A stretch of DNA of 64,000 bases from Bacteroidota bacterium (GTDB lineage: Bacteria > Bacteroidota > Bacteroidia > Bacteroidales > P3). The notes under the pieces are model-generated. The model was given only the letters and a program-made list of their open reading frames with translations, had not been told where the DNA came from and did not search any database. This document shows positions 8,678 to 41,349 of the stretch, piece by piece. Position numbers and translations under genes: made by a program. The stretch lies in contig JAFNAQ010000001.1 in the NCBI GenBank assembly GCA_017860275.1, forward strand, positions 248,001-312,000, written 5' to 3'. Position 1 is the stretch's first letter. Each line of letters starts with the position of its first letter.

Positions 8678-8818
8678 ATTTTTGAATGTATTTGATATAA
8701 AAAAACAAGCATAATTCTATGCACATAGAGTATAACTAAAAAAAAAACAAATAGTTTGAATCTTACCTCTGCATCACAAGAAAATTCTTTGCAAACAAAG
8801 CGACAATTTGACTATCAT

Positions 8819-8854
8819 ATTTATGTTCAAAATTGTTCAAAATTGAACATAAAT
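8819..8854. repeat. 12-bp inverted repeat with TGTTCAA cores
   Basis: ATTTATGTTCAA (8819-8830) and its exact reverse complement (8843-8854) flank a 12-nt spacer that itself contains another TTCAA. A counterpart, ATTTTTGTTCA and its complement, lies at 40890-40925 upstream of element B. Both are about 140-150 bp left of the first G-rich motif of their element, so this is probably part of the same unit. Confidence 0.75.
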
Positions 8855-8968
8855 GAACAAATTGAATATGGAAATTACGAAGATTTTAGAAAAAATTACG
8901 ATGAAATTCATGTTCAATTTGTTCATTTTTGAATAAAAATACATCGTTTTTTTTAGTGTTTTTGAGCA

Positions 8969-9250
8969 GGGGGAAGAGAAAATGCAATTTTTCGAGCCTA
9001 TCTTCCCCCTCTAGAACTAATTGATTTTCTATATCTTGATTGAGTCAGGGGGAAGAGGGGGAAGAGAAATCCTATTGTGCGTATACTATTTTTTGAATAT
9101 TGAATATATTATTTCTAAATAAAATATTCAATATTCAATTATTCACTAACTCACTATGAAATCCTCATCCCCCTCTTCCCCCTAGAGCGACAATAAACTG
9201 ATTATTAAACAATTCCAGAGGGGGAAGAGAAATCCAAACTCTCTTCCCCC
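8969..9250. repeat. Palindromic element A, motif GGGGGAAGAG
   Basis: Eight copies of one motif occur. Forward copies are at 8969, 9048, 9057 and 9220; reverse-complement copies start at 9000, 9164, 9173 and 9241. The order is F-R-FF-RR-F-R, which is symmetric on reverse complementation. The centre holds a perfect 15-bp inverted repeat, TTGAATATTGAATAT (9093-9107) and its complement (9124-9138). Element B at 41029-41308 has the same order, length and spacing with a different motif. As RNA or cruciform DNA it could form two short outer hairpins and one long central stem. No protein is encoded. Confidence 0.85.
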
Positions 9251-9308
9251 TCATCATTATTTATCATTCAAATTTCTCCCTTATCATATCCAGAAATAAG
9301 GATGTATT

Positions 9309-9375
9309 AGATTTTTTCTAAAAGAAATCTATACTTTTCTCAGAGAAAACCATAACTTTCTCAGAGAGAAATCCA
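9309..9375. repeat. Three tandem TTTCT/AGAAA palindromes
   Basis: Three palindromic units follow each other at roughly 25-bp intervals: one with TTTCTAAAAGAAA near 9309-9330, TTTTCTCAGAGAAAA at 9335-9349, and CTTTCTCAGAGAGAA from 9356. The same CTTTCTCAGAGA sequence forms the terminator at 56210-56253. Function unknown. Confidence 0.6.
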
Positions 9376-9493
9376 CTTAGATTTGATATAAATTCACCGC
9401 TTTGTAACCTACTTTTTTATAACTAACTTATAATCAATCAATGTTCCATTGTAACCCCTCCTTAGTACAGGAAACAAGGTTTCAAAGTTTAAT

Positions 9494-40801: not shown

Positions 40802-40889
40802 TTTGCAAAAAAAACTTCGTAAGAGAGTAATGCCTCATGCAAAAAGTAAGTGTAAACCCAATTCAGAAAAAGTCAGTTTTTTTCTTTAT

Positions 40890-40925
40890 ATTTTTGTTCA
40901 ATTTCTTCGTATTTTGAACAAAAAT
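40890..40925. repeat. 11-bp inverted repeat with TGTTCA cores
   Basis: ATTTTTGTTCA (40890-40900) is the exact complement of TGAACAAAAAT (40915-40925). It corresponds in place to the repeat at 8819-8854 upstream of element A; the TGTTCA core is kept while the flank differs (TTTTT versus TTTAT). Confidence 0.75.
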
Positions 40926-41028
40926 CATCGTTTTGAACATAAAAAACAAGGATTTTTTACTTAATTCTTCTTTTTTTTCTGTTCAATTTGTTCAATTTTG
41001 CCCCATTTTTACCCCTATTTTGGCTAGG

Positions 41029-41308
41029 GGTGGAGATAAATCGCTATCTTTTTACTCAATCTCCACCACTTTATAAATACTGAATATCTGTAACTTATGT
41101 TTTTGTGGTGGAGATGGTGATGAGAAATGCCTATGCGTGTTAGTGATTTTTTGAATATTGAATATTTTATTTTATAGAAAATGTAATTTATGTTCAATTT
41201 ATAACAAGAGCACAATGAAATTCTCTCCACCATCTCCACCACACATACACATCTACCTAATAAACATATCATTACAGGTGGTGGAGATGAAATTAAATTA
41301 TCTCCACC
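41029..41308. repeat. Palindromic element B, motif GGTGGAGAT
   Basis: Forward motifs start at 41029, 41107, 41116 (altered) and 41280; complementary motifs at 41059, 41223, 41232 and 41300. The order F-R-FF-RR-F-R and all start-to-start distances match element A within one base (31/30, 48/48, 107/107, 47/48, 21/20). Non-motif backbone is also shared, e.g. GAGAAATnCTAT after the second pair, TTTTTTGAATATTGAATAT in the centre and CACnATGAAAT before the third pair. The central right arm is decayed here. Confidence 0.85.
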
Positions 41309-41349
41309 ACGATTTTTTTCAGACTAAATCCTCAATTGTATAAAAAAAA

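Follow-up and report, generated by a model that had tools for sequence, protein, structure and literature searches.

Intergenic iteron arrays in a Bacteroidales genome as probable orphan origins cognate to VapE-type initiators

Introduction

The window analysed here, a stretch of 64,000 nucleotides from a Bacteroidales genome (G000:C1:248001-312000), contains two palindromic elements, A and B, which are probably orphan copies of a replication origin of the iteron type, one cognate to a VapE-type initiator whose gene they lack. What is seen directly is a set of repeat arrays, the association of such arrays with one kind of gene, a motif that is private to each such gene, a correlation of the motif with the C-terminal domain of the gene product, and a cassette-like pattern of sequence identity.

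In this model, a complete module would comprise a BT4734-like primase domain, PriCT, a VapE-type helicase, and a C-terminal winged-helix-like domain, with the origin placed just behind the stop codon. The origin part would consist of arrays of an 8-10 bp iteron set in opposite orientations around an A+T-rich core. The C-terminal domain would bind the iterons, the helicase would load on the opened core, and the fused primase would start synthesis. Furthermore, the C-terminal domain and the iterons would be replaced together, in at least one locus pair like one cassette exchanged between near-identical flanks. Binding by the protein, replication itself, and the manner in which orphans arise and persist are what we infer from the arrays and genes described below.

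Anatomy of elements A and B

A first-pass annotation of this DNA had described two elements, each with eight motif copies in the order F-R-FF-RR-F-R (F, forward; R, reverse), in which the motif had been swapped as a set, and a listing of the positions bears this out (Table 1). The motif is 9 bp long in both. The copies of A (GGGGGAAGA/TCTTCCCCC) start at 8969F, 9001R, 9048F, 9057F, 9165R (1 mismatch), 9174R, 9220F, and 9242R; seven of the eight are exact, and all seven exact copies within the window fall inside A. Those of B (GGTGGAGAT/ATCTCCACC) start at 41029F, 41059R, 41107F, 41116, 41223R (1 mismatch), 41232R, 41280F, and 41300R, with six of the eight exact and the second FF copy present in register at 41116 as the degenerate GGTGATGAG. 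When up to one mismatch was allowed, the A motif was absent from B and the B motif absent from A. The offsets of the copies (0, 32, 79, 88, 196, 205, 251, and 273 in A; 0, 30, 78, 87, 194, 203, 251, and 271 in B) correspond as had been claimed, but they agree within two bases rather than one.

The FF and RR pairs enclose a core of ~98 bp with 78-80% A+T, compared to 65.5% for the window. Element A is flanked by divergent genes, one for a DUF1003 protein and one for a BspA-like LRR protein, and B comes after the terminator-like hairpin with which an ABC-F gene ends. The surroundings of A and B contain neither a VapE-like gene nor any long piece of one, but at most a few possible codons. The minus strand of A is the orientation in which an initiator gene would come before the array.

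Table 1. Positions of the features of elements A and B in the window, and of one plasmid array
Feature	Position	Strand	Remarks
Element A, probable orphan origin-like iteron array, 282 bp	8969..9250	-	eight copies of GGGGGAAGA, F-R-FF-RR-F-R
A, distal flank	8818..8968	.	in part weakly similar to the distal flank conserved in B, C29, C87, and C95
A, FF tandem iteron pair	9048..9065	+	
A, A+T-rich core between FF and RR	9067..9164	.	79.6% A+T
A, RR tandem iteron pair	9165..9182	-	
Element B, probable orphan origin-like iteron array, 280 bp	41029..41308	-	eight copies of GGTGGAGAT, F-R-FF-RR-F-R
B, distal flank	40884..41028	.	matches the C29 and C95 flank at 98-100% identity as far as the last iteron
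B, FF tandem iteron pair	41107..41124	+	second copy degenerate
B, A+T-rich core between FF and RR	41126..41222	.	78.4% A+T
B, RR tandem iteron pair	41223..41240	-	
Possible relic, last codons of a VapE gene (GAGGATTTAGTCTGA)	41316..41333	-	short and tentative, from a reading of the sequence
Apilactobacillus kunkeei plasmid array	L336 2217-2777 (OX335342.1)		

Further copies in the host genome and its relatives

Two observations had been named in advance as counting against the first-pass annotation: that A and B were the sole copies anywhere and lost their matched spacing in close relatives, and that the motif copies changed independently in homologues. Instead, further copies turned up in the same genome when A and the C29 copy were used as queries (C29, C87, and C95, plus the shorter C48 and C92), and the further homologues show coordinated change. 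The motif is GGGGGAAGAG in C29 and of the GGGTGGAG types in C87 and C95, and both motif types occur together in the mosaic C92. Similarity among motif copies is higher inside one element than across elements (0.89 versus 0.71; 0/2000 permutations). A second family follows the same logic, with 10-bp units placed on a conserved core (GGTTAAGGTA, AGTTAGGGTA, AAGTGGAGGT, AAGTAGAGGC, and AAGTGATAGT).

Similar elements are scattered through the host genome and its relatives, and the count of orphans is a lower bound. A scan for tandem 8-12-mers that have an inverted tandem partner gave 21 matches, versus 5 in shuffled sequence, over ~464 kb that had been partly chosen around known matches; nearly all of the matches with a period of 9-10 and arms ~100-120 bp apart belong to the elements described here. 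Some orphans retain a remnant of the gene: G001 C24 still has the final 38 aa of VapE and G007 C62 the final 108 aa, and several copies in the host genome, from a reading of their sequence, probably keep 5-10 VapE codons. Because part of the VapE gene is kept, the orphans would derive from units of gene plus origin.

Arrays behind VapE/BT4734 primase-helicase genes

The gene that lies ahead of several of the arrays encodes a primase-helicase with a BT4734-like N-terminal domain, PriCT, and a VapE-like helicase. In the host genome, an array with its own motif lies directly behind the VapE gene in five of five cases, which comprise three complete PF05272 genes and two partial genes at contig ends, the latter recognized by their homology to the tail of these proteins. 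A search of genome contigs with an alignment of closer VapE sequences gave five loci, and a search of viral contigs with the VapE alignment returned only distant phage primases, which were set aside. Other species of the genus also have a motif of their own behind the gene (GTGAGGGAG, GTAGGAGCA, GTAGGAGTA, ACGGGACA, and GGGGGCA), as do other families of the order (ATCTTACC, CATCTGCAA, TGACTACA, and others). Inverted arrays are found behind the BT4734/BF3469 gene of a Parabacteroides distasonis and behind one such gene of Bacteroides finegoldii (GGCGCAAAA and GTGTGAGAG), but two other B. finegoldii genes are without one. On a circular plasmid of 14.8 kb from Apilactobacillus kunkeei, 14 copies of GTGACATT (6 forward, 8 reverse) lie behind a VapE-like gene. 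An array is present in most close homologues; among VapE relatives, no clear array was seen in L158, L291, L297, L299, L334, or L335.

A strict array scanner (13/42 versus 2/151) missed known arrays, and consequently inverted repeat words were counted instead. The words were 7-mers that occur two or more times on both strands in the 400 bp after the stop codon, and they were seen for 25 of 47 VapE-type genes compared with 15 of 225 control genes, taken from the other ORFs at these loci (odds ratio 16, p=1e-12). A few loci have two locus numbers and were counted under each, which makes the p-value somewhat too small. The enrichment held with each of the several word lengths and thresholds tried. 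Motifs were called in part by eye, and the genes, being related, are not independent. Taken together, the recurrence across Bacteroidales of an initiator gene paired with a private motif suggests a job for a gene family that lacks an assigned function.

These arrays also bear on whether the copies must pair with each other, as had been postulated earlier. If A and B were a structured RNA or a cruciform, changes in the motif would be compensatory, and both the strong predicted folds (z-scores of -11.7 for A and -7.2 for B) and the joint change of the two arms would fit. However, stacked inverted repeats give such z-scores anyway, and an Rfam scan of the window had 0 matches at the gathering score. 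In addition, the order of the arrays differs from locus to locus, and the numbers of forward and reverse iterons are often unequal (6/2, 6/8, 5/4, 3/2). Given these unequal numbers and the two motifs mixed in C92, pairing is not needed. Since it would also fail to explain why the arrays go with an initiator gene that has its private motif, a structured RNA or cruciform is very unlikely.

The surroundings of the genes were recorded as well. Within the genus, modules of VapE and origin often stand beside restriction-modification or defence-like genes (L122 974-2859; L123 7267-11500; L156; L161 5371-8499; L121 1770-4691), such neighbours being an EcoRV-type endonuclease with a D12 methyltransferase, NgoPII with a C5 methyltransferase and GmrSD, type I systems, and an HD-CE/HSP90-like gene. 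Upstream of VapE, a divergently oriented gene for an HU-HIG DNA-binding protein is found repeatedly (L156 6616-7065, L121 7817-8251, L157, L158, L161), and the companions of the BT4734/BF3469 gene in Bacteroides and Parabacteroides are DUF4248, HU, and an amidase or glucosaminidase (L330, L331). The 8.2-kb Terrisporobacter plasmid pTM2 (L332, NZ_CP101639.1) resembles a small phage satellite in having both a phage major capsid gene and a gene for VapE. A VapE nearly identical to that of Bacteroidales UBA4866 occurs on a Bacilli MAG contig (L257, STD2_241), which is probably mis-binned.

Why the motif changes as a set

The motif appears to differ from locus to locus because change in the initiator's C-terminal domain goes hand in hand with change in its iterons; the backbone thus stays the same while all copies, whichever way they point, take on a different motif. 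The species G001 has one backbone in five copies, and each of these elements has an iteron of its own that recurs across its motif copies; identity is 59% in the iteron columns and 88% in the backbone columns (7 of 3000 random block pairs are as low). When B is compared with C29 in the host genome, the distal flank is 98-100% identical, while the iteron block outside the core is ~50-65% identical. In the gene-bearing pair C44/C85, also of the host genome, the helicase tail is identical at 99 of 99 bp; after it, the C-terminal domain, the iterons, and the core diverge, and the sequences are then 92-100% identical again. This is the pattern that exchange of a specificity cassette, composed of a coding part and its site, would leave. 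Alternatively, fast divergence of the block under selection could have produced it.

For 20 gene-array pairs, motif similarity correlates with the identity of the C-terminal domain, given helicase identity (Mantel test, 1/2000), whereas it shows no correlation with helicase identity itself. The domain has a winged-helix-like predicted secondary structure, and its VIA structural matches are only winged-helix domains and are weak (Z 5-7); Foldseek returned nothing at E<0.001. The structure prediction is poor (mean pLDDT 43, with only the C-terminal domain at 60-80): a full-length model was of low confidence and one of the C-terminal part was poor, so that a winged-helix-like fold is no more than suggested. 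The first-pass proposal of a specific binding partner that differs for each element is thus supported by the arrays behind VapE/BT4734 primase-helicase genes, by their private motifs, and by a motif that tracks the C-terminal domain. On this evidence, the coordinated swap seems to reflect initiator specificity.

It might instead be argued that concerted evolution alone is at work, with slippage and template switching between inverted repeats homogenizing the copies in the absence of any function. Tandem inverted short repeats are prone to both processes, the homogeneity within elements fits, and the partly mixed C92 resembles an intermediate. Nevertheless, homogenization by itself explains neither the placement of arrays directly behind VapE genes throughout the order, nor the correlation with the C-terminal domain, nor flanks that are 98-100% identical beside fully different motifs. 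As a sole cause it is very unlikely, although it may still account for how a new motif reaches all copies. A bolder form of the initiator-origin model, which we regard as a tentative and rather doubtful extension, is that Bacteroidales chromosomes hold a diversifying set of initiator-origin pairs in which the C-terminal DNA-binding domain and the iterons are exchanged as one specificity cassette. The gene-less origins would then act in trans, either hitch-hiking on an initiator already resident, which spreads them, or serving as decoys by which the initiators of invading satellites are titrated.

Comparison with known systems

The earlier statement that no element like this had been described goes too far, since the origins of the staphylococcal SaPIs are comparable in layout: their iterons lie directly downstream of a helicase whose C-terminal domain reads them (PMC7581432). 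The SCCmec helicase Cch2 uses its C-terminal domain to bind direct repeats that lie downstream of its gene, and the putative origin there has three 5-nt iterons in direct orientation (PMC7581432). The Bacteroidales arrays, in contrast to the Cch2 origin, are inverted 8-10-mers. At VapE-bearing loci they resemble a SaPI origin in that short iterons lie directly downstream of an initiator helicase gene, which A and B are without. As in SaPIs, the initiator is related to Rep/VapE; its helicase has PF05272 matches and is homologous to the solved VapE 7pds (E=1.1e-24), which we take to be the Rep of SaPI5. SaPI origins have an A+T-rich region between oppositely oriented iteron sets, and a core of this kind is present in A and B (79.6% and 78.4% A+T versus 65.5%). 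Unlike those of SaPIs, the Bacteroidales arrays go with a BT4734-like primase domain, have HU-like (HU-HIG) and restriction-modification genes among the annotated near neighbours of their VapE loci, and exist in numerous gene-less copies.

In previous work, VirE/VapE domains were predicted to be helicases of mobile elements, and the C-terminal winged helices of related primases were suggested to recognize origins (PMC5862659). Together with the SaPI-like layout and the homology of the helicase to 7pds, this has led us to read A and B as orphan origins. The genes ahead of the arrays belong to the BT4734/BF3469 family of Bacteroidales (PF08800 + PF05272), for which the literature searched describes no origin or iterons. 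The function proposed for these primase-helicases is therefore that of replication initiators, each with a private iteron origin behind its gene, and a class of intergenic palindromes would be accounted for as orphan origins. Genes of this type occur in many Bacteroidales, gut Bacteroides included. They would provide a natural series of initiator-origin pairs that differ in specificity on one scaffold, making the evolution of origin specificity directly testable, and such pairs could yield replicons for use in Bacteroidales.

Dispersed intergenic repeats that contain inverted repeats also call to mind MITEs or REP-like sequences moved by a transposase. Like the REP/RAYT palindromes, the elements are dispersed, are tied to a gene whose product acts on DNA, and include gene-less copies. 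Yet the host genome has no Y1 transposase (0 matches to PF01797), and A/B-type elements, unlike REP, are tandem arrays of short motifs that change coherently. Furthermore, a MITE would conserve its terminal inverted repeats between copies, whereas here conservation is lowest in the iterons, contrary to what is expected of transposon ends. Transposable repeats of either kind are thus highly improbable.

The genome also holds other short intergenic repeats, seen at 9308-9380 of the window, at L096 13979-14044, and at L013, L033, and L034. Their types are a GGACTAATT inverted tandem, GGGGCGAAT...ATTCGCCCC palindromes, AGAATAAGATTCTA arrays, and CTCAGAGAGAAA repeats.
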